Assembly (NCBI RefSeq): GCF_024713945.1
Contig: NC_134678.1
Span: 4,712,001-4,776,000, forward strand
DNA: 64,000 nt
Reading direction: 5' to 3'
Origin: Dermatophagoides farinae
Taxonomy: Eukaryota; Arthropoda; Arachnida; Sarcoptiformes; Pyroglyphidae
The notes below the pieces were generated by a model. The model was not told where the DNA came from. It saw only the letters and a list, made by a program, of their open reading frames with translations, and did not search any database. The position numbers and the translations under genes were made by a program. Positions 27,601 to 46,900 of this stretch are shown here, in pieces (the stretch's first letter is position 1; each line of letters starts with the position of its first letter).

Positions 27601-29056
27601 GTTCAATGTATGTTCAGAATAATCCTTTGGTTTGATCTTCCATAAATGATTGTATAGATGATATACAATATCTATTTTGAGGTTTTTTATCAATTGGCAG
27701 AGTATATCAAGCACGTATCGTTCATAATGTTTAAGTTGGGCTGCACTCCAAATGAGATCTACATGTTCAGCGGTAAGTCTTGGCGCGATAAAATTCAGAA
27801 TGAAATGGCTTTGCTTAATCATTTCTACATGTGAATTTGGTCCATAAATATTTTCAAGAATTCTGTTTTCAATCAACCATTGGCCAAGAAGATCTCTTAT
27901 ATTTTCCATATTTACATCTATTTTAAATAAAATTGAAATTTCGATAAAAATTAATGTTTTAATCACTTACTCATTGAGTTATGTGGGAGATCATTGTAGA
28001 TAGTGATACAGGTGTTGATTTGAGCCAAACCTGATAGTCGCATTGTTAATGTTGATGATGTAAAATACTTGTGAGCAATCTTCAATCCATCTCCATCGAG
28101 GCCAAAATTATTGAAATTATATTCCTTTACAACTGACCAAATGTATTCAAACATTGCTCGGTTAGTGGTATTTCTTAAATCATTATCTCGGATTTTACAC
28201 AGGTAATTTATCACATGTGTTCGCAATGTGACTAGTTCAGGATTGATAGCAGACAGATTGAAATAATACTTAAGGCTCTGTATTGTTGATATCAACGAAT
28301 TGGCATAGGAGATCGTAAGACAACTTGGATCAGATTCTTTAAAACAATCGATGAACAATTTGAATCCGGATGTTTCGATGAAGTGGACGATTTTTCGCAT
28401 CAAAAATATAGGCATTTCATAATCACTGAGATCACAATAGTTTGACAAGATCTTTATCTCTTTAGCCGATAATTCTTCATTTTTTGTATAATTAGAATGT
28501 TTATATGTAACATAGAGAGGAAAAGAAACTTGAAATGCCTGTAATATATGAAAATATTTAGATAAGCATTAAAAATTTTTTTGAAATATCACCTTTGACA
28601 ATAATAGCAATAATCTTTCTTTATCTTCATTACTCCAATCTTCGAAGAATAATGAATATTTTGATTCCTTGGTAATAATGGTATTGAGAAAATTAAAAGA
28701 TTTTATGATCACTGATTGCACCAGATTATTGAAGCGTGTAAAATTTTTTTGATCTTTATAACAACAAGTGCAATGTCTATGAGCGGAAGAATAAACAAAA
28801 AAAAATAATCATATGACGATTAACAATTACAATTATTCTTACTTGGTGGACCAATTATTCATATAATTAATCAACAAATTTAGATCATCTCTTTCCAATA
28901 TATGACCATCCGGATCTTCGGATGTTTGGCATTCATCATCTGAAAATGAAAATAAATTTTTAAAAATCATGATAAATTTCTAAATGTTTATTTACATTTG
29001 GAAAGAAGAACAATCATTTCTTTACAATTATCACAAAAACTTTCTATAAGTGACAT
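18646..29056 (-). CDS. USP34: USP34-type ubiquitin carboxyl-terminal hydrolase (puffyeye ortholog)
   Basis: A large gene of about 15 or more exons joined by short GT-AG introns, encoding roughly 3,000 residues. It starts MSLIESFCDNCKEM at 29056 and ends at 18646. The N-terminal scaffold matches USP34 closely (YMNNWSTKHCTCCYKDQKNF, and FPLYVTYKH in the next exon). The protease domain lies in 22601-24590: Cys box GLTNLGATCYMASC with the nucleophile codon at 23524-23526, zinc-ribbon Cys pair YNCSVCGKKV, and His box HTGTAEGGHYYCF with the His codon at 22750-22752, so it appears active. Long HEAT-like segments follow, including SHQNIQWAFKNITPYSNQY, typical of USP34. USP34 family enzymes remove ubiquitin from proteins including axin and Myc-pathway factors. 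Confidence 0.95.
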
Positions 29057-30062: not shown

Positions 30063-33000
30063 TTAACCACTGACAGAATCATCAGAAATTTGAGAAAGAA
30101 AACGTAATTTTTGTTGAAGTTCTGGCCGCATTGTATCTATTCGTTCATCGATATATTTCTGCAAAAGATTCCCAGTAAATCGATCTGTGGACAAAATTTT
30201 TTTTTATATAAATCTAAATATAAATGTAATATAGTTAATTACTTACATTTGAAATGATAAAACAAGTCACAAATAGTGTCGATATGATAAAGGTGAGTAC
30301 ATTTCTTGTCTACCGTATCCAACATTTGGTACAATTCATGAGCTATAGCAATAATACATTTAGTACGTTCACTTTGTAAACGTTGTAAAAATGGTCCAAC
30401 AAAATAGCAAACCAATATCAATTGTTCTTCTGTCTGAACGATCGGTTTGATCTTTTCTTTTATGAATTGTGGCATCAAACATAATTGGCCAAATGTACCA
30501 TGATACCAATAAGAATGCGATAAAGCCATTGTGTAGCTCATATCGTTCTCATAGAAATTTGCATGGCTATTTTTGAAATCAAAAATGTGAAAAAAACTCT
30601 TCCCAAGGAAAGCACGAGGATTTTTCAATAGTTCCACAAGACGTTCTTTAAGTACAGAGGAATAACTTTCAGGCAATGCCGTGAATATCAAACCGATTGC
30701 GTTGATCCATAATTCAATATCTTGTCGAGATATATTCTTATGGCTATTGGCTACAACATTGATTAATTGATTCGATACATCGAATGGTTTTCCAGGCAAT
30801 GCTAAAATTTCCACACAAGTTACATACAGAGCATGTGATTGAATATTGGAAAATTCATTGAATCGATAATCGGTCATACTGAATGGACATTTGCTTGGAG
30901 AAGATAATGTGTCGACAAATCGTCCAATCAAAAATTTGTAATATTCTGGATCTAATTTTATAATTTTATTAATTATTATTATAATAAACAATCAAACATT
31001 GAGAAAATATTAATCTTACCAGGATTCCATTCTTCATCGTTATTTTTTTGACAATAATTCATAAATGGCTCAGATATGGCCCAATTTTTAGGTCGATAAT
31101 CTTTAAAAGCATTAATGATAGTAAACACCAGTTTTTTCTTCAATTTCGTTTTTCCCTTTAAATTTGTTTCATAATAATGCAGGGTATTGTACAGGAATGT
31201 GATCGGGTAGCTATGAAATTTATACAGGCAGCCGTATTCATCCAATAATGTATCGACAAAATTCGAGACGAATTCATTTCCACATGAAAGCATTTCGATA
31301 AGACGATGAATAATTATATCTTATAATTAGAAAAATAATCTTTAGTCAATGAAAAAGTTCAATTTAATTGTTTGTACAAACCAAAAACTGGCAATATTCT
31401 CAAACAAATATTGCTGAAAATCGGTGGTATATTAATCTGACTTCCCAGATTGTTGACATCCTGTAAATGGTCGAAATAATATTTTTCCGGGTATTTCTAA
31501 ACAAGATTAACAAGAATCAATAAGTCGTTAACTAATACGTATCGCTATATATACTATATATATACAAACCCTGAGGAAATTATTCTGTACTTCTGTCCAA
31601 TTATACTGCTGCCAATGTTCGGGTGAGTTTTCTCTAACAAAATCATTAACACGATTTTTGACATCGGAATTTTTAACAATCAACAATTGAATGATGAAAA
31701 AACAAACTTGTGCTTTGTTTCCTTCAAAACTTCGTAAAGCTAGACATAATAATAGTTTATCCAAAGTAACGACGTGGCATTTCCAAATGAGATCATTCAC
31801 AGCTTCTTTTGATTTGCTTACATGTGATCCACCGAGTAAATTAGCAAATTCGAGTACAAGAAAATCGGCAAAAGTTCGAAGGTGATTCGATAAAGCTTTA
31901 ACACCAATTTTATCTAAAATCTTATAAGATACTTGTGGAATATGTTCATTATCCAGAAGCATTTTGTAAAGAAGACAATAAATCAACGGCGGGGTTCCTT
32001 GCGAAGTAAAATGTTTGATACGATCATTATCATTCGTTATAGATTTCCATCGACGATATTCTTCATCAACAGATTTTTTCAACTGTGCATGATTAGTTTC
32101 TTTTTTGGTACTGGATTGATAAAATTCACTGATAATCGGTGGAAAACATTGAAGCGTGAATGAAGGCCATGCCAAATTGCTATTGAGGTTTTTAATCTCT
32201 TTGAGAATTTCTTGCACCCAATGGACATATTGCTCGCTGGATAATGCTTCGGTTCCAGTTATGTGGGTAGCGCGAGCTAATGTATATATGAAAATTTTGT
32301 ATAATTCTTCGGAATCTGGTGGTAAAAAATTATAAGTCTCATCGACTATCTTTGGCCGCACAGTACAAAAAGCAATAAATTCGAAACAATTAAATCCATA
32401 CAAAATTTTCAATGCAGTATTTTCCATGAATGAATATAGTTGAATATGATTAATTTGAGTAACAATCGATTTGTTGAAAAGTTGTCGCAACAATTGTATT
32501 TGATTGGCACAATTTATTCGATGCAGTCGATAAGAATAGATTTCTAACAAACTAAATAGATAGCTCCATCCATGAATTTTGGAAATTTGTACCATCAACT
32601 GACTCCAAGTTTTGGTCTCTTCATGTTGATCGATTTCACTAATTGATGTTAACCGGCAATATGTTTCTACTAAATATGAAGGGAATGTTGGTACAGTTTT
32701 AGCTTGCATAACACTAAAAAAACGTTTCATTATGTATGATGTTAACCTGTCATGAATTAAACGATTTATAAAATCATCATTTATAAGTCTATAATAGAAA
32801 CTCACTCTTTTCGAGTGTGAATGGTTAACGAATCAAGCATTTCCATCGAGATTGGAGGATCATCACTCATTTGCTGTACAGATGTCGATGTGTTCATTTT
32901 GTTTCTGGTTTCTAAAATATTGTCGACAAAATATCTAAATATTTTTGAGTACAATTCCGGATTGGATGAATCTAGAAATTGGTAGAAATCAAACAATAAT

Positions 33001-34866
33001 TGGTGACATAGCATTAAATAATTGAAAAAACATACAAGAATTGCATAAAATAGCAATTGAGTAATCTTTCGTCAAATTTAAATTTGAACTATGACGTAAA
33101 TAATCGATGTGTAATTTGATTGCGATTGGTATTCGAGGCTGAAATTTTAAACCATCCAAATCATTTTTTGTTATAAAAATGAAAATCGAAGCTGCTGACA
33201 TTATGAAGACACTATTTCGTTTGCGGAAATCTGGCAAGGGTAGAGGTTCTTTTTCGATATATAATAGATCGAATAGTTTTAAAATATTTGAAATAATAAG
33301 ATTGTCATTTTGGCTAGATGAATTGTTATCTGATGATGTTGGATATTCCATTCCGGATAATATTTGCAAGAGCGTCCACATCAAAAACTCTCGACATTTA
33401 ATCAGATGTGTGATTGGTGATATTTTACTATACTCATAAAGCTTTTCCAAAAGATTGTTGATCAATAATGAAAAAGAAATATTCTGATATTGAGAAACAA
33501 AATACAGAGTTGTAGATGAGATATGATTCCAAAGCATAACAATTTGAACAATATCATTTTCCATTTGATTAAAATCAAACTGTTCAAAATTACTGATTTC
33601 AAAAATTGATTTATAATTACAGCTTTTGATGACTGTACTAACGATAAGTTCGATTAATAATTTTTCAATAATATTAATGGAACGATTGTCTTTCAAATCT
33701 TGATGTTTGGCCAACGAAAGAATATGAGCAATGGTTTCACGAGAATTGTTTTGTTCAATGATTTGCAATAATAATGTTGATTGTGGTTCATTCAATTCCT
33801 TATCATATGGTAATAGGCCTTTCAATTTGTATTTAGCAGTTTTTTCATCTAAATTTAATGAATTGATCCAGAAACAATATCCAACAATAGGCATGATACG
33901 AGGTCGTCCAGAATGTGAAACAATTTTGGCTAAATCATGAGAATGTATAATGTAAATAAAACATTATAACAAGTTATATTGGATATAATTCAACATACCA
34001 ATCGGTCGAAAACTATCGACAAATACAGATATTAGTTTAGAAAACGCCTTAAAAAAGGTAAAAAGTTTGAGTTAAAGAGTTGAAACAGGAAGCAATTTAT
34101 TTATTAAATTTACCCAATGACCATTTCCATTTTGTAGAACTGTGTAGAATTTATTTTGAATTTCATCAAGCACCAAGTAAGCTGGTAACAGACTTGTATC
34201 TCGATCCAAAATCAATGCTATCAAGTTATGAAAGGCATGCACTTGTTGATAGATTGATTTGGAACATTTGATTGGTATCAATGATATTTTTGAGAGTAAT
34301 ATAGCTAATATATCTCGCACTTCTTTATATTTGACCAGATGGATGATACGTTCAATGAAATTTAATCCATTCACCCAATAGATTTCATTGTTCAATTCAA
34401 AATTTTCTGACAGGATACAACGACAAACAATCCTTTGACCAAAAATAATGAATCATGATAAGAAATTTAAAATAAAAAATTAAGAATATACTTACATCGG
34501 TTTCACTAGATCAGCTTCAATGATACCTACTAGAAATTCAAACAGTAAATCGCTCTGTTTGTGACCGATTGTTTTACTCATTTTATCGATATAAAATTTG
34601 ATATTACATTCAACAAGATTTGGTTCAACATCTTTGAAGATTGAAATCAATTTTTCTTGTAATACTTTTTTGGTTGTAAAATCATTTTGCGGTGATGTTT
34701 TGGTAAAACCTGAAAAACATTCATCTAATGAATTGTAATGCTGATGAAAAAAAAATATTAAAAATTTAATATATACACATAAATAATAATATTACAATAA
34801 TTAAATCGATGTAATTTTCAATTGGTTGTGGATTTATTAATGATTCCATTATGGTCAATGTATTCA
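30063..34866 (-). CDS. MED23: Mediator complex subunit 23
   Basis: About ten exons encode roughly 1,300 residues, near the human 1,368. Start is MNTLTIMESLINPQ at 34866; the stop codon is 30063-30065. Strong family signatures occur in order: GLLPYDKELNEPQSTLL (family NLPYDKDLLQPQ), MEMLDSLTIH, LEIYSYRLHRI, YTLARATHIT, SVDEEYRRWKSITND, LRTFADFLVLEF, RENSPEHW, YPITFLYNTLHYYE and VGPFLQRLQSERTKC. The last exon ends LRFLSQIS, matching the human C-terminus. MED23 links transcription activators such as ELK1 and C/EBP to Pol II through the Mediator tail. No domain beyond the conserved helical repeat body is visible, and no break in frame was found. Confidence 0.96.
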
Positions 34867-35419
34867 TTTGAAAATTTTAATTTATTGCCGCCGCACACAA
34901 ATCTACAACAATGGAATATTAATTGGAAAATAGATCAGAATACGCTCAATCAAACGCTCAGAGTGTGGTGAGACCAGAGTGTGAAATAAGCATGGTTAAC
35001 TGTACTGCGCATGTCGGTTTCGAACAAAAAAAATTCGACCAAACCATCTCGCGCTTTCAGTAATTTCAATTCGTGAATATTTTTCTGATTCATCATCAGA
35101 ATAATTATGTCAGTAACTTTTCATTTTTTTGGCAGTATTTTTTTTTATTCATTAAAAAAATTCTTTTTCAACAACAGTTCTTCAACAATTTTACTGACAA
35201 AATATAAAATTAATTACATAAAGTGCGCCATTTTAATTTATTAATTTTTAATTCATTTCAAAAATTATACAAAACATCAAATCATATTGTTAATAATATA
35301 TTGATCACAAAAATATAAATAATTAATTAATAAAATAATTAATTTGTACATAAATACGATGGAATGATAAGATGAGAGTTATCGAATTCAATTCAAAGAC
35401 TAGAATACAATGTTTATCA
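34867..35419. other. Region between the PARP-like gene and MED23
   Basis: AT-rich except near MED23, where a GC-richer patch (about 34890-35080) has two GAGTGTG direct repeats and looser GCATGG and GCATG sites. This is the likely MED23 promoter. The rest is AT-rich 3' flank of the PARP-like gene. Confidence 0.4.
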
Positions 35420-38400
35420 TTACATTGTATTTTTAAAATTTAATAAATAACGTGGCCTTAATTGTTTAGGAGACAAATAGAGGAATCGTTTTGAATTACC
35501 GATTTCGAAATTCATAGGAACTATGAAGCCTAAATTATTAAAAAAAAAAATATAAATTTATCTTTACAAAAGAAAATTTTTAAGGAAATTTACCTTTCCA
35601 TAGCAGATAATTGTTATCCTGATTCGAACTTGGTGATGCACTTTTTTCGTCAGATAAGATAAGGCAATCTTTACTACGAATAAATGTTTCGTAATTTTCG
35701 CTTGTTAAAACATTTATATCATCAATTTCTATTGGATTCTGTATCAAAACTTCGCAAAGTATCCAGAAATCATCCGTCTGTTCAAAATTACTAATTCTGT
35801 TAGTCAAACAAACGCCCTACAAGAAAAGGAGAAAAAAAATTAAAATTCAAAATAAATGCAAATTTTTTAATAATATACATTCATGATGATAGGCAGATCA
35901 GAATGCAGTAAAAATGTTTGGCCATCAAATCCACCAAAGAAAAAACTTAAAAATTCATAACTCTTCAAATGACACCATAGTAAATAGGTTTTGCAAGATT
36001 TATTCGTATTCCAATCGACACAGTTGTTGAATTTGAAAAACTCGTAATGGTTCAAACAATCATGATCATCATGTTGTGGACCATGCAAGTACGAACAAAT
36101 AAGATCAATTTCTTCTTTATTGGTCAGAATTCGACATCGCCAACGGAACAATGAATCTAAAGAATTCCATGGATGAATGTTGGAATTTGAATGGAAAGAT
36201 AAAAACAAAGATTCCATGGCGGAAACCATTGATTTTAGCTTCATGACAACGTGAATGATTTCTCGAATATTTTTCATGTTTAGTATGGGTTTAAGTTGAT
36301 CATAATGAGATCCATAGATTTTAATGTGTGAATAAAATTGTTCGCTCAAGTCTATCATATCATTCAATAATTTAGGATCTTCTTTTTGATTTTTTGTCCT
36401 ACTTAGATCATTAAAAGCGATTAGCTTGGACAATCGATTCAGGATGACTATTTTGATAAAAAAGAATATCTAAATGTAAGAAAATCAATATTAAATTGCC
36501 ATACTCACATAAACAACGTTCGATAGATTTTGTGCTCAACTTTTTACAGGATTGATCAGGATCATTTTCGGTTTCCAGATGGAGGATTTTCATATATTTC
36601 ATTATAAGTTTCTTAAAATCTGGATTTGTATTTTCATGAGAGGTTGACGATTCGGAAGTGAGTTTTTCAAAAAGCTCTTGCGAATTCCAGGAATCAAAAC
36701 CTGTTTTAATATCTAAGGTGTTTCTTTCATATTTTTCTTGTACAGCAAAAACATTAACATGATCCCAATCTTCGCCAGACTTTTTAGCGAAAATCTTTTT
36801 GAAATTTTCAATGCTTTCTTCTTGAGAATCATAAAATAATTTTTTCACATTTCCTTTGGTTCCGACACGCCCCCAACGAATTGATAGACAATGTTTTGAT
36901 CCAAATGAAAGTAATTGTACTTTGTAAAAATTATAGACATAATCACTATTTTGATAATCCAATTTTGTGAAAATTACATCAAAAGGAATTTTCGAAGTTT
37001 GATCTTTGATTATCCGCCTAAAAAATAAATTAGTCAAAAATTTCTAAATAAAAATAGACACACTTACTTTAGCCGATAATCTTGAGCAGTCATTGATTGC
37101 AAATCAGCCATATAATCATCATTGCATGATGAATGAGATTTGATGAAAGTTTCACAATTTGATTCAAAATGATTTATAACACAATTTTCACTCGTCACAT
37201 TGTTGAATGAATGTGAGGATATATTTGAACCAATATTCAATGTTTTTTCCATCCAATTAATCAGTTGTAGTGCCTTTTTTTCCATTGAGAATCGATAGAG
37301 TTCATCAATCAGTTGATTAGTTTTATCCGATTTAGTAAGCATATTCCATAGTTTTGAATAATTAATATTAGATTTATAGTAATTGCCTGATTTGAATGGA
37401 GATATTAAATGATGAAACACGGTTAATTGATTGACATCTCTTTTTAAAATATTCAGTTGGTTATATGATACAGAGGATTTAGTTTGAGAATCTGTTTTTC
37501 GAAGAATCTCGGCATCTAACAATGAATGAATGATTTTATTGTCATTTATTAAAATTGCATGCACCAGAGGAGTACGTTCATGAGAATCGACAAAACTAAT
37601 ATCGACAATAAATCGTTTAGTTATTTGTAATGTTAGCAACCATTCAACTGTCGAATGGCATCGCATGATGATCGCTATTATTAGAGGAGAATATTTGATC
37701 GAAGAATATCGATTTTGATAACGATGATCATGTTCACAGAAAGCTCGATACTTTTCCATAATGGAATCTTTATTCTCTTCGATCGGATAGCTTGATAATA
37801 CATTTATTTCTTGAAAATGGTCCATCTCTCCTTTTTGCAAAATCAATTCAATCAAATCCATCATATCTCGAGGCAAATCTTGACGTTCAAAGACTAATTT
37901 TTTGAAACAAAGCGGCAATAAATCGACGTTTTTTTCTTTTATTTTTTTCAATACATTGTTAATGCCAAAAGTTTTTATTAGTTTTTTGCATAGATTGAAA
38001 TTCCAATTATAAAATGCCAACGAAAATAGATCAACAAAAATTGTCGATATAAGATCATCTCTAAAAATCTTTAGAAAGTCATTTTGAATTTCCATATCCA
38101 ATTGTGCGCTGGTATATTTAGCAAACAGTTGCAGATATAACCGACTATATTCTTCAACATGAATGTTTGATCTTATCAAATTTGACGCATACGTCAAACA
38201 CTGAGATTTGATTGATATTTGGATCAATTCATTCAATTCTTTTTGACGAATAGCCCTTTCTTGAATGAGAAAGAATGCATCTAAACAAATTAAATAGATT
38301 ACGGAATGTTTTTTTTTTCATTAAATATCGCTTACCTTTCCACCCATTTTTTAAGATATGACAAAGTAAATTTATTTTAATATTCTTTTTCAAGATAAAT

Positions 38401-41400
38401 TCCAAATTATCTAAAATCCGATTTTTTTCCGATCTCAATAATAACAACGTGCACTCTACAAGAAAAATAATAAAATGTATTAAAATTCTCATAGAAAATT
38501 TCTACAAACCTAGATGATTGTTAAGAATAGCCAATGAGAGAGGAGAATAATTATCGAGATCAATAGAGTTCGGATCAATATATTGCAAAAAGTAGGTAAT
38601 GCATTGAGCAAATCCCGTTTTGGCTGCATAATGCAAAAGATTCATTTGTTTATTATCTAAAAGGTCTTGAAATTTGATTCGTTTTGTATCGATTTGTTTG
38701 AACAAATCTACTGGATCTGATGAGGTATTATTCATAAACAAATAATTGAATGCATTATATCCATTCTGATCTTTAGCATATAAATCGATATCAGTTTTCA
38801 TGAATGTATTCAATAAATCGGATAATCTTGATGAAAATTTATTATTTTTGAAAGCGACATGAAGAACAGTCTGACCTATTAGAAAAAATGAAGGATAAAA
38901 ATGAATAAAAAAAAGTTCTGGACAATGAAATAGACAAACCTTGATAGTTTTTCTTATTAGCATTAACTTTATGATCAATCAAAAGTTTGAAGGATTCGAG
39001 AAAATAATTCCGTTCAACATTTGCACAAATTAAATGTAATGAAGAATTGCCAAATTTATCAATATAATCGGGTTTGGCACCCAATTTTAAGAAATATGAA
39101 CAAAGATTTAATGAAGAACTTTCTCTTAAGTAATAGAAAAAACAAGGCATGCTGTCAATTTCAACATTTATATTAATTTTGGAAGAAAGGAACGCTTCAG
39201 CTGATGATACATTATCATTGACCAATGCGATAGCCAACGGTGTTTGATTTGATTCGTTTCGAATATCGGACATTAGTCCGATTTTATCAATCAAACGTTT
39301 GACGATGCGACCCGGTGCATATCGAGCAGCAAGATGTATTATTGATATGTCTTTCAAAAATTCGCAGTCATAAAATTTCACTAAAAAGTCAAAAACATTT
39401 ACAAGTTTGTGCTCATCATTTTCATATGTCGATGATAAATGTTCTATAATGGAAAAAATTGTAATTATTGAATCATTTTAGTTCAATCTGCTTACTTGAT
39501 AACTTGATGTAAAATTCGATAGGCAAATCTCCACTTGCATTTGTTTTCATAGACAAACTTTTAAGCAGATTAAAAAAATTCTTATCCTTTTCGACTTCAT
39601 TGATGATGAATCTACCGAAAGTTGAAAAATTACCTTTATTCACACGAAATTGACTAAAAATATTTGAAATTATCATGGGCCATAAATATTCATTCGTTGA
39701 TAATGTTTGCAGAAAACAAAAAGTTTTGTGATGGTCATGGAAAAAACGAGAAAATGATACGTAGCATTGATTGGAAAGTGAAAAATTGATGGGAGATATT
39801 CCGGCATTATTTTTCGAATAAATATCACAATTATTTTGTAACAAAATATGTAAAGCATCTTGAATTTCATTTATCTATAGGTTTATGAAACAAACCAAAT
39901 GAATATCAAACATTAATTTAAAAGTTTTTCTAAGAAGCTTACCACAGTTGGACTCGAATTTCGATATTTAGCTTCACATTTCAATAAATAATGTAGCTAT
40001 ATTTTGAAAAATTTGAATTAGTTATAAAAAGTATATAAGTTTTGAATCAAGATTACCGCGTTGTTTCCTTCATAGTCAGTTTTGGAAAGGTCACATTTAA
40101 ATTTTTCGACAAGCATTCGCAAATGGCTAATGGTTCGACTACTTGTTATCATTGAGCAAGCCAACATTGTCATATTGATTCCGGTATCGTTGACTGGAAC
40201 ATTGACATTGAGGATGTTCTTTTTAAGAATGTATTGAATGAATCCTAAATGACCTTTCTTAAAAGCTGCGTATATGGGCGTCAAACCGAAAGTATTTGTA
40301 TCTTTGAGATTAATATTTGTTTTCAATAACAATTCGAAACAAGAATGCCATCCATAAGCCAATGCATAATGGAATAGATTGTTGCCAAACAAATCTTTAT
40401 GTGATGGATTTGCACCTATCTCGAGAAAATATGTGACAATATTTGAGTGTCCATTGATCACCTATGTATAATGAAAAAGAATTGGCATTATAAATCGGAT
40501 GAAAATATAAAACTTTTCTTACAGCATAAGTCAAAGCGCAACGATTTTTTTTATCAAAGATATTGATCGTAGCTCCTTGTTCGACCAACAATTTGACAAT
40601 TTCCAAATAACCATATTTGGATGCAATCATCAACGATGTTAATTCTCCTGAATGAATAGATGTTGCGAAATCAATCTGAACACGATTATCGATGAATATC
40701 TTGACAATTTCGATAAAACCTTTTTGACAAGCTATATGAAATGGTGTGTATCCTTTACGATTGTATGTATTGAATAATGATGGGATAATGCTCTGGGAAG
40801 ATTCATATTGTATGATTAAATTCACATTTTGTATTCTATTGTATTTCGTGGCTAAATGCAGTGACGTATTTCCTTTAGCATCGGATAGACGTGCCGATAC
40901 ACCCAAGTTGAGCAAATGTTTAAGGTTGAAAAATGCTGAAAATCAGAGAAAAAATTATATTTTTTTGTAAGTTAGTCTAATAAAAACAAAAAAATCGTTT
41001 CAACATTACTTTGGCAAACAGAAGCGTAATGTATTGGCATCCATTCTTGGCAGTCATTCTGGTAGATTTGGTTAGGTGTAATAGTGATCATGTGATGAAA
41101 CATGAATGGATCAGGATTAATCGCTGCAAGATGAATTGGATAGAGTTTAAGATATTTATTTACACAACATTCTAGCCACTTATTGTCACTTTCAGATAAC
41201 ATATAACCTTTCAAAAACTGATGAATATTATAAAAGCTCTTATTATCGAATTTAGTTTTAGAAATTTTTTCCATCATCACCACTGCTTGTTCATGATCGC
41301 CACATTTCAGCAGTGTCAAAATGTTTTTATCAAAAACTCCAAGACCATTTTTGAGCAGCGGCATCATTCTTTGAATGAAACTAAGTTTAACACCTTGTTT

Positions 41401-42876
41401 CAAAGCAAATTCAACATATGATTCGTCTAAAGGAAATTCTCGGTGATTATATTTCTCATATTCCTTTGCATCCATCATTAATTCACAATGATCAAGTTCC
41501 AGCGAACAAGGCAACTGATAATCATCATCGAAGCTAACAATGTTTTTTTCAATTTCCTTCAATAACTGTAACGATTTTATATCTTCTTTAATAATGGCAT
41601 AATGTATTGCGTTTCTTTTAATTGAAACTGAACGAGAAATAGATATTGAGCAAATATCAAGATGGTTTTTAACGGCTAGTTTTTCAAGAAATTCATGATC
41701 ATCTAATATGACAGCCCGGATCAATAATTTTGAATTCACATAAGATGATATGAATGGCAGTGTGATTTTGGTTTCGAACAAAATATTTTTTTCTTTTTGA
41801 CATTGATCGATAGTTTCGTTGGCGATAGCATTTTTTGTTATTGAACCAACAATTGATATTGGTGGCGTTGTTTCGTTTATTAAGCCATGTGGTTCCGAAG
41901 AATTTTTTGTTATTTCGAATTTCGCTTTTTTTGTTCGCCTTTGAGAATCACATGATGTGGTGTTTTCATTGTCATCGTTAACGATTGTCGAAGTTGTCGT
42001 CATTGTTCCATTATTTTTTCCACTATTATCATCGACCATTGTCAATGAAGGTAACTTTATGGATTTTTTATGTTCAATCCCATCATGGTTATTATTGATT
42101 TTGGACAAAACATCTTCTTCTTTCACTTTTCCAATAATCGAAATATCTACACCATCACTTAAAACTTTACGAGGATCCGGTGGTAAATTGATTCCTTTTT
42201 CAACATCAAGTGCACGTTGAAGAATATTTAATGCACGATTTTTTTCATTATCCGGCAAAGAAATACCATCTTTTTCACGTTTTACCCGAAGATTAGTAAG
42301 AATGCATTCGAAATCTATGTAATCATCAAAATCTGGGCGGTAAATTTCTTTGTCTTCATCATTACTGTACCATTTGATTTTTATTTTACGGCCATTTTTG
42401 TAGATGTTTTGTCTAGCTCGACAAAGAAAGAAGCTGTTGTGTTCATTTCGAACTGCTAAATAATCATTGCAATTATAAATGACCATTTTTGAGTTTTTTT
42501 CATCGTTGTTATTTGTAGTCGACTGATCGTTTTCCATATTTGAACCTTCTTGTTGTCCATTACATTTGGCATCATTTTTCTGGCTTATCAATCGAGTTTT
42601 TTTGTTTTTTCTTAACACCTCACCAGTATTGGACGTTTCAGAAATTCTTCTTCTTCGAGCACGTAGATTGAAACGCTTCTCCTCTTTCATCGAATCACCA
42701 GATTCGGATTCGTTTTCTTTTTTAATTTCATCTTCATCAATCATGATTTCTCGGATGGAACCGTTTTTATTAGTCAATTGTTTGTTAGCATTATTATTAT
42801 TATTACGATTTTTCGTTAAATGATTTTCAAAGGAAACATTTACCGTTGATTGCTTTATCGATAAATTTGACTCCAT
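35420..42876 (-). CDS. Ankyrin-WGR-PARP protein (PME-5/tankyrase-like) with degenerate catalytic residues
   Basis: About 15 exons encode roughly 2,000 residues. The frame extends upstream to 42924, but only through a TTG after an in-frame stop, so the first ATG (42876, MESNLSIK) is chosen. Order: an Asn-rich acidic N-terminus; a small beta-rich domain (VRNEHNSFFLCRARQN, KIKIKWYSND); many ankyrin repeats (KGNTSLHLATKYNR, LTSLMIASKYGYLEIVKLL); a WGR domain near 36750-37000 (SIRWGRVGTKGNVKKLF); a PARP regulatory-like helical segment; and a C-terminal PARP-like fold. Canonical LLWHG reads LLWCHL, canonical GIYFAD reads GVCLTN, and the usual acidic E-x-VVY reads KRFLYLS. All three H-Y-E positions therefore seem lost. 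The architecture recalls C. elegans PME-5, a DNA-damage-linked PARP. Confidence 0.85.
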
Positions 42877-43884: not shown

Positions 43885-45264
43885 TCAATGTGCATTATTA
43901 TTTTCATCAATAGTTGATTGTTGCCTTTGTTTTGTATTAACTTTTCGATTTGACATTTTGTTCGCCGTTGATGATGATGATTGCTTAGTCTGTGTCTTTC
44001 TATCATTTTGACATTCATTATTTCCTGTCATTGAATTACTTGTTTCCTCCGGTGCAAATCCATATTGTTCGATTATATTGGCCACTTGCTGTACATTCAT
44101 TGTCTGTCCGGTTGTATTGACCGTCGATAATGATGGTAAATTTGGTGGCAATGGTACGCCTGATTGATACATATAGATTATAAGTCGACGTAATTCTTCA
44201 ATAGCATTGCCTTGCATTAAGATAAAATTCTTGGCCAATAATAAAGTAGCAATTTTCGATAATTTTCGTACAGACGGAGAATGTGCGTATGGAATGACCG
44301 ACCGTAATTCATCAAGGGCATCATTAAGGTCATGCATTCGACGTCGTTCTCTTGCATTTATATTTAAACGTACATGCTGTGAATTGATAAAAAATTATTC
44401 GATTATAAAATATCGATTGGTTTGAAACGAAATTGTAGAAAATATCGAAAAATGAATGAGACTTACATAATTATCACTTACATTGATCGATTTATTTAGC
44501 CGATTCTTATGTGAGCCGGAATTCTCAATGGATATAATAGCATCACAATCGAAAGTCGATTGTTGATTATGAGGATTATTAATATTGCTGTTGTTATCTT
44601 CGTTGTTACTATTTTGTTGTTTTTTCATTTTGCTTGTTATGTTTTCAATTCTTTCAAGATTATGAACAAGACGAAGATTTGATTGTTGGGGATTGAATGA
44701 TAATTGTTTGGTTCGATTAGTTGATAGAAGATTATTTTTTGAACGATGCATGTCTTTACCAGTCATTGGTAGACAACAATCTTTGTTTTTTAACAAATCA
44801 TGATCGTGAACCACGACACGTTTGGCCATTTCTAATGAACTATTGGCTACAAACGGTGTGTACAAATCCGAGATTGGATTGATTTTATGTTCCATTTGTT
44901 CGATGGGTAACTTTCGAATTGTTTGTGTGGTTGATGATGCAACACAAGTAGCATTAAAATAGTGATCAATCGAATGATGAATTGATATAAACTGTGATGA
45001 TCCAGTTGGAACTGTTGCCGTCGGCGTTGGATCGTTATTGGTTTTGCTAGTGGCAGCTACTGTCGATACGGATGATGATGAAAACTTTGTCTTTGGCCAA
45101 ATATTGTTATTAAATGTATTCAAACATGAATCACTTGATTGAAGTGTTGGTTCAACCGCATAGACCAGACTACCACTGACACTAGGACCCGAACAGGACA
45201 GATGGCCTGGCAGGGTCTTTTCCGCGATTATTCCTGGTGAACTAGGATCTTCATAATTTTTCAT
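43885..45264 (-). CDS. Oli: Olig/Beta3 family bHLH transcription factor
   Basis: Two exons: 44467 or 44482 to 45264, and 43885-44376, giving about 424 or 429 residues. The bHLH starts at the second exon with [18 protein letters not shown], continues [20 protein letters not shown], and ends with [20 protein letters not shown]. This is nearly identical to the BHLHE22/Olig class and to Drosophila Oli. The ERRR basic region fits E-box binding as a dimer. Such factors specify neurons, commonly as repressors. The long N-terminal exon is low-complexity (Asn, Ser, Thr) with no other domain, and the C-terminus is Gln/Ser-rich. Exon 1 has two GTAAGT donors 15 nt apart, both in phase with exon 2. More than 1.6 kb of non-coding DNA lies upstream, suiting a regulated developmental gene. 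Confidence 0.92.
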
Positions 45265-46900
45265 TATTGTTATTATATACAGAATACCAGAAAAAAAATG
45301 AAATGGACTCGGTTTTCAACAACAAATGGACAGAACAATTTCTATTGCAGCAATTTAACTACATTAACCATTTAAAATGAATGGCTTATTTATTATTGTT
45401 GTTGTTGTTGTTTGCCATATCGAAGCCACAAAATGAATAAATCCAAATTTTAGTAAATAATATTTGAAGTATTTTTTACTTTGACATTCTGTATGTTTTT
45501 TTTAGCGACGCCTTCTACAACGTTTCAACGTAACACCAATAGTAACAAATCAGAATCGAGAATCGAGCCTATATAGCCTATATACATTAAAAGATTGAAC
45601 CAATGAGAAATAAATTCCCAAACGAATTTGTAGTCCTTGTTTATAACATGTTATTTTATGGTTCTCACTCCAGAAGCTGAACGGAACCCATAAAATAACA
45701 ATACACATAGATACATACACAAACGACAATTGAACTAAATTGAACATTGATTTAATCAAAATGAAAAATAAAACAGTTATTATACTATACTATAGCTTTA
45801 TACTTTAAACACGTTTGTCATTTTGGTTTGAACCAAACTTAACACAACACGATATGAAGATCGAATCACTGAAAAAAAAATTCTTGTAATCATCATCATC
45901 ATCATGTAGCATTCATTTTCTATGGGAAAGCATTATACAAACATTGAAAATATTATGGATGATTAAGTTGTTCAACGCTTTATCTGTGGTACGATCCGAT
46001 CACAGACAATCTCTGGGGTGTTGGATTCCTCGCTCGTTTTTTTTTGTTCCGATCAGATTTGTCACGCTTGTTATATACATGTGTGTATGTATGTATGTAT
46101 GTATATGGATCATTGGACCGTGTTCCATGTTCGCCAATGGGGATGTTCATTCATCCATGCTTTCGCATCATCGACCGCAAAAAACTGTATATATACTATA
46201 TTATGTTTACAACCAACTATGGTTGGTCGGGTCGTAATCATTAATACGAATAATGTGAATGCCAATGGCCATCATCATCATCATCATCATCATAATAATT
46301 GACTTGACTATATAGCGCAAATTCTATGAATCTAATGTCATCAAAAACAAATCTAAGTGTTGTTGAATTTAATAAACATGAACATTAAAATTGGAAAATG
46401 ATGATTGTATGTCAAGATAAAATTGTTAAAGAAACACAGAATACAATCCTAGAATTAGCAGAGTTTTCCAAAAAAATAAAACAAACTCCAAATGTGAGCC
46501 TATTTTCAAATCATACTTTTAATTCCAAAGATTTGTAATAAATGTTTCGGTTAATAGGTTTATTATAATAAAAATAAAGTTTATTATAAATTATAAATCC
46601 CTGAAACTTGTATCAAAACAAATATATAACAAATATTCGAATTGTGATTTCCAGACCAATGTCGAATGGTCTGTTCCAATCTAATCAAATTCTGGCCAAA
46701 CCACTCTCCAAATCTGATTATTTTGACAAAACAAAAAGTTGACAGATGTGACTGCTATGTTTCGACCAAACACGTGCCATAGTGTCACGCTTTTTCAGCT
46801 TCTCATTTATAATACAAAAAATCAATGTAGTTAATTCGATAAGTTTGTTCCGCTTTGTTCGAAATGTCAAAATGAATTCGAATCATCATCATCATCATCA
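45265..46900. other. Long non-coding region upstream of the bHLH gene
   Basis: AT-rich with GTT, CAT and TATG microsatellites (45400-45413, 46272-46293, 46083-46103). A small hairpin AGACCA to TGGTCT is at about 46654-46673. Probably holds regulatory sequence for the bHLH gene and the 3' flank of DHX34. Open frames here cross simple repeats and are not supported. Confidence 0.4.

Follow-up and report, generated by a model that had tools for sequence, protein, structure and literature searches.

Several members of the PARP family have already been described as inactive, including Arabidopsis PARP3, RCD1, ZAP and TASOR, as set out in the parts of two reports used here (PMC6701155, PMC7532188). 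Arabidopsis PARP3, in which the three catalytic positions read C-V-E, is presented in the passages cited as inactive and unable to bind NAD+; according to the same passages, an AtPARP1 C-V-E mutant still bound NAD+ (PMC6701155), so loss of the triad alone need not abolish NAD+ binding. The inactive PARP domain of TASOR is described, in the excerpt consulted, as lacking a usable NAD+ pocket and as needed for function (PMC7532188). For the ankyrin-type protein PME-5 the summary cited gives a nuclear, chromatin-associated location and induction by DNA damage (PMC2964712), and in PARP1 the DNA contact of the WGR domain is attributed to W589 in the section cited (PMC8150716). Here we describe a mite locus that, judged on sequence comparison, is on balance probably a live gene whose product is a pseudo-PARP, with domains in the order ankyrin-WGR-regulatory-catalytic. 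It lies in a 64-kb stretch of DNA that was analyzed as a whole (the window), from a genome of 62.4 Mb in 22 contigs. Seven ML-domain places were located in this genome, and the one compared with solved structures had Der p 2 and Der f 2 as its best relatives, in keeping with a mite.

The gene model was computed without transcripts and comprises 13 exons on the minus strand, from 42876 to 35420, that together give one open frame and a product of 2243 residues (Table 1), in agreement with the preliminary description, in which the frame had been reported as open over all exons. All 12 introns, with lengths of 50 to 74 bases, start with GT and end with AG. The three motifs named there (LLWC, GVCLTN and KRFLYLSPK) were recovered from the minus strand, one each in exons 11, 12 and 13 in that order, and the span that it covered, 35420-36433, corresponds approximately to these exons. 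When 24 splice combinations were tried, three stayed open past 2200 residues (2243, 2240 and 2217), each of them using the acceptor at 36448. A rival acceptor at 36470, in the region of intron 36508-36448, has the better pyrimidine tract but leads to a stop at residue 1963; the choice of 36448 is backed by the KLSxxxIxxxxxIL pattern of the PARP1 regulatory domain, which, compared by eye, then crosses the junction gaplessly. The product from acceptor 36470 would have 1962 residues and end after the WGR domain, inside the regulatory domain, and a truncated isoform of this kind is conceivable. For the last exon, the acceptor at 35562 likewise has a better tract but yields a 2217-residue product and an intron of only 32 bases, for which reason 35530 was chosen.

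Table 1. Features of the ankyrin-WGR gene, in positions of the window and listed in the direction of transcription.
Feature	Position	Strand	Content or basis
Exon 1	41010..42876	-	start codon at 42876; low-complexity N-terminus, segment at about residues 131-228, ankyrin region begins
Exons 2-9	37068..40935	-	ankyrin repeats; computed exons, Pfam Ank_2 E 1.2e-68
Exons 2-5	40935-40523, 40461-40057, 39996-39943, 39874-39496	-	gene model
Exons 6-9	39443-38940, 38875-38510, 38455-38336, 38280-37068	-	gene model
Exon 10	36509..37017	-	WGR and start of PARP regulatory domain; Pfam, genome search
PARP regulatory (helical) domain, residues 1930-2036	36170..36551	-	Pfam PARP_reg; split by intron 36508-36448
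Exon 11	35879..36447	-	remaining regulatory domain and first half of PARP-like catalytic domain; alignments
Cys2102 of LLWC	35974-35972	-	His862 column in 10/12 alignments
Exon 12	35594..35816	-	GVCLTN and ILCEVLI strand; gene model, alignments
Cys2136 of GVCLTN	35810-35808	-	Tyr896 column in 12/12 alignments
Exon 13	35420..35529	-	last strands, RPRYLLNF, stop codon ending at 35420; gene model, alignments
Arg2222	35488-35486	-	Glu988 column in 12/12 alignments

At the N-terminal side of the protein, the segment of exon 1 at about residues 131-228 (YLAVRNEHNSFFLCRARQNIY...IKIKWY) looked beta-rich by eye, and basic clusters preceding it resemble possible nuclear localization signals, also by eye. 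Pfam matches to this segment all fell below cut-off (best E values 0.023 and 0.027), and its best PDB match had an E value of 1.5. Upstream of the gene, minus-strand open reading frames at 43885-45315 contain a segment that resembles a basic helix-loop-helix by eye. The neighboring minus-strand gene at 31531-33963 was identified as Mediator subunit 23 by Pfam Med23 matches in two exons (E 7.3e-113 and 3.4e-49) and by a PDB match; an open reading frame near it, at 27966-28568, gave no Pfam match.

The domains upstream of the C-terminal end were readily recognized. Pfam assigned ankyrin repeats to eight stretches across the whole protein, and residues 1802-1860 matched the WGR domain with 42.2 bits (E 8.9e-11) against a cut-off of 22; a six-frame genome search located the same domain at 36756-36935 (E 2.8e-11). 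Both the ankyrin and WGR parts thus scored above their Pfam cut-offs and are retained, as had been proposed, and the Trp-Gly-Arg of the WGR domain is kept. The regulatory domain scored 26.1 bits (E 9.8e-6), slightly short of its curated cut-off of 26.8. When the last 478 residues were used as a phmmer query against the PDB, the nearest relative was PARP1 (E 2.2e-7), and the match extended over residues 38-308 of the query, from the WGR domain through the regulatory domain to the first portion of the catalytic-like part. Lys633 of PARP1, located just past the WGR domain and presumably of importance there, is not retained in the mite protein, as read by eye from the PDB alignment. A search of NCBIfam gave no match. 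The eight Pfam matches of the full protein at E values up to 1 included no SAM domain, and a separate tankyrase gene was found in the genome; the identification of the ankyrin-WGR gene as a tankyrase was rejected on these two grounds.

The last 205 residues (2039-2243, from 36163 downward) form a catalytic-like domain that is very divergent. With Pfam, the PF00644 catalytic domain was matched neither in the full protein nor in the final 254 residues at E values up to 1, and no catalytic match appeared in the last 300 residues or a 123-residue stretch at E values up to 10; as a positive control, the 37-residue end of human PARP1 was recognized with 29.2 bits. We aligned the domain to a clade-1 profile made from mite PARP1 and human PARP1, PARP2 and PARP3. 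Global alignment was run at two gap settings and gave z values of 6.8 and 7.3; none of 1000 shuffles reached the score at either setting, and at the second neither did any of 85 equally long pieces taken from the protein itself. Four overlapping sub-blocks behaved similarly in global mode (0 of 1000 shuffles as good for each). Local alignment to the profile gave weak scores, equaled or exceeded by 25 and 18 of 1000 shuffles, hhalign in local mode detected the last strands only (probability 1.95%, E 0.025; 4 of 200 shuffles as good), and the four sub-blocks in local mode were equaled by 2, 317, 1 and 2 of 1000 shuffles. The LLWH-GEVAL block, which holds two of the triad positions, was at chance level by this measure (317 of 1000 shuffles and 16 of 114 natural pieces as good). 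When the whole protein was scanned without gaps, the 22-column end block scored best at residue 2220, and for the 47-column LLWH block residue 2099 ranked second, behind an unrelated place in the protein. In one alignment, 43 of 185 aligned residues were identical to human PARP1. AlphaFold models of single exons were unusable (pLDDT 44.8 for exon 11 and 43.7 for exon 10), and scans of genome and viral contig collections, queried with mite PARP1 either by itself or in an alignment with its human counterpart, yielded no confirmed relative; seven phage records that carry distant PARPs were left out of the profile. Given where this domain lies, behind the WGR and regulatory domains, together with its length and end-to-end fit, we take its homology to the PARP catalytic domain, as assessed by alignment, to be real, and it appears to keep the order and spacing of the PARP strands.

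The residues at the catalytic positions were read from 12 alignments (two starts by six gap settings), which are not independent of one another, a single profile underlying them all. Where PARP1 has the H-Y-E triad, the mite protein reads Cys-Cys-Arg (Table 1), in line with the proposal that all three positions are replaced: the Tyr and Glu were lost in every alignment and the His in 10, the other two alignments (gap opening 6) placing His2103, directly after Cys2102, in the His862 column. The spacing of 34 between Cys2102 and Cys2136 equals that of His862 and Tyr896 in human PARP1, human PARP2 and mite PARP1 (30 in human PARP3), and the spacing of 86 between Cys2136 and Arg2222 compares with 92, 96 and 100 in human PARP1, PARP2 and PARP3 and 94 in mite PARP1. 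Outside the triad, positions 863, 878, 903 and 904 also line the NAD+ pocket. Gly863 corresponded to His2103 in 10 of the alignments and to a gap in two, whereas Arg878 was aligned with Asp2118, Phe897 with Leu2137 and Ala898 with Thr2138 in all 12. Tyr889, Lys903 and Ser904 were without counterpart in every alignment, and Tyr907 was matched by the aromatic Phe2144 in eight and by a gap in four. With the H-Y-E triad and much of the nicotinamide pocket lost, neither ADP-ribose transfer nor normal NAD+ binding is to be expected of the protein. These changes support the suggestion that it would be non-catalytic.

The preliminary description had also held that the gene is not a pseudogene, and for an old relic at least this stands, given the open 2243 codons, the canonical ends of all introns and the coding-like codon use of the last domain. 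With a codon table built from two open reading frames of the neighboring Med23 gene only, the last 205 codons scored +0.40 bits per codon in frame and the WGR domain +0.49, compared to values from -0.30 to +0.14 for the last domain read in its five alternative frames. The probability that random codons of intron composition contain no stop is 3e-8 over 205 codons and, by a crude estimate, about 1e-11 over 300 codons. The open frame and codon use suggest that an old relic is not involved; a recent loss is compatible with the same data.

Other PARP-related genes were sought in the genome. A PF00644 search at E values up to 0.001 found three places, none within the window. One is an intact PARP1, with LLWHG, GVYFAD and YNEY, WGR and regulatory domains and, by eye, zinc-finger-like segments in a neighboring frame; another is the tankyrase, with ankyrin repeats and SAM; the third is a short PARP domain that looks PARP16-like by eye. 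PARG is also present. The PARP_reg search of the genome returned one place, PARP1; this search, which is blind to introns, missed the regulatory domain of the ankyrin-WGR gene. Three places were found with WGR, namely the ankyrin-WGR gene, PARP1 and a weak match at G000:C10:3229914-3230072 (20.1 bits, below cut-off, with two in-frame TAG codons), the last being chance or a relic. Searching the genome with the last 478 residues at E values up to 0.1 gave four places, all in the same gene; this excludes only close paralogs, because the search also missed the genome's PARP1.

An alternative to a live pseudo-PARP is that the gene is kept for its ankyrin-WGR part and that the catalytic domain serves no separate function and is drifting under relaxed constraint. 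Such decay is possible, if unlikely. It would fit a domain so diverged that Pfam misses it, the altered triad and pocket positions, and the better tract of acceptor 36470 with its early end, but with acceptor 36448 exons 11-13 contain neither stop nor frameshift, the odds of random openness and the coding-like codon use are as given above, and the end-to-end PARP fit is preserved. The absence of the usual motifs might instead be an artefact of annotation or assembly, with an alternative exon or a sequence error concealing them, since the gene model is computed and two acceptor choices depend on frame, intron length and homology. We searched 34900-37100 with three triad-motif patterns and obtained no minus-strand match in any frame, so the exon that the preliminary description had named as a possible restorer of the motifs did not appear, and the artefact was rejected on this basis; a single plus-strand match was attributed to chance. 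As the PF00644 search likewise found nothing in the window and errors would be required in three separate exons, we regard this explanation as exceedingly improbable.

The protein could also be an ADP-ribosyltransferase that is still active through an unusual or displaced set of catalytic residues, in which His2103 would serve for His862 and other residues for the Tyr and Glu, perhaps with mono-ADP-ribosylating activity. Two of the 12 alignments do place His2103 in that column, and mono-ADP-ribosylation is compatible with loss of the Glu alone in the accounts excerpted (PMC7532188, PMC2964712); nevertheless, the consistent Cys at Tyr896 and Arg at Glu988, the missing counterparts of Lys903 and Ser904 and the replaced or unmatched Gly863 make it very improbable. 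The preliminary description had suggested a non-catalytic ADP-ribose sensor; for a sensor of ADP-ribose or NAD+, the PARP-like domain order and the aromatic Phe2144 at the Tyr907 position were the positive evidence found. This part of the proposal is not supported, as the pocket is largely gone: in 10 or more of the 12 alignments, each of positions 862, 863, 878, 896, 903, 904 and 988 was either altered or unmatched, and loss of NAD+/ADP-ribose binding is predicted from the loss of the pocket. Arabidopsis PARP3, with milder changes, is described in the cited passages as having lost NAD+ binding (PMC6701155), and we consider such a sensor improbable. The pocket may have been rebuilt instead. 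Cys2102, His2103 and Cys2136 sit where the original His, Gly and Tyr were, and together, perhaps with Cys2154 of ILCEVLI, they could make up a site for metal binding or thiol redox chemistry by which the domain is locked or switched in an ankyrin-WGR break sensor acting without ADP-ribose, an arrangement that we think highly improbable.

Returning to the pseudo-PARP, we infer its inactivity, fold, DNA contact, nuclear location and scaffold role from the features above. In the putative mechanism, the WGR domain would contact DNA, at ends or in chromatin, partner proteins would be carried by the long array of ankyrin repeats, the dead catalytic domain would act as a folded structural or docking part, and the chemistry would be left to the intact PARP1 of the genome. 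A DNA or chromatin scaffold acting through WGR is plausible, and a DNA-break sensor, the other function put forward in the preliminary description, is possible by way of the Trp-Gly-Arg that the WGR domain keeps.

PARPs without activity have been described from both plants and vertebrates. In a limited literature search we came across no PARP of the ankyrin-WGR-regulatory kind in which all three catalytic positions are replaced, and for mites and arthropods the search gave unrelated papers only. If conserved in mites, the gene would offer a natural test of the role of the ankyrin-WGR part in PME-5-like proteins when catalysis is absent, and also of a possible structural function of the regulatory-catalytic unit itself. 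Compared to known systems, tankyrase shares the ankyrin repeats and PARP-type C-terminus, but its account in the source cited has SAM rather than WGR and regulatory domains (PMC2964712). TASOR, ZAP/PARP13 and RCD1 resemble the mite protein in combining a PARP fold with a degenerate active site and pocket; in the parts cited they are not described as WGR-regulatory proteins (PMC7532188), whereas the context of the mite domain is that of PARP1-3. Arabidopsis PARP3 is closer in this respect, with WGR and regulatory domains before an inactive catalytic domain in which the His is a Cys and the Tyr is lost, yet the passages cited give it a retained Glu (C-V-E) and a BRCT domain and describe no ankyrin repeats (PMC6701155). 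The domain order of the mite protein, with ankyrin repeats followed by WGR, a regulatory part slightly short of the Pfam cut-off and a catalytic-like part, is that reported for the ankyrin-type clade-1 PARPs, C. elegans PME-5 and Dictyostelium ADPRT3 among others, in the excerpts cited (PMC2964712, PMC4245714); the comparison covered domain order, and the mite gene is set apart by its Cys-Cys-Arg and by a catalytic domain invisible to Pfam.
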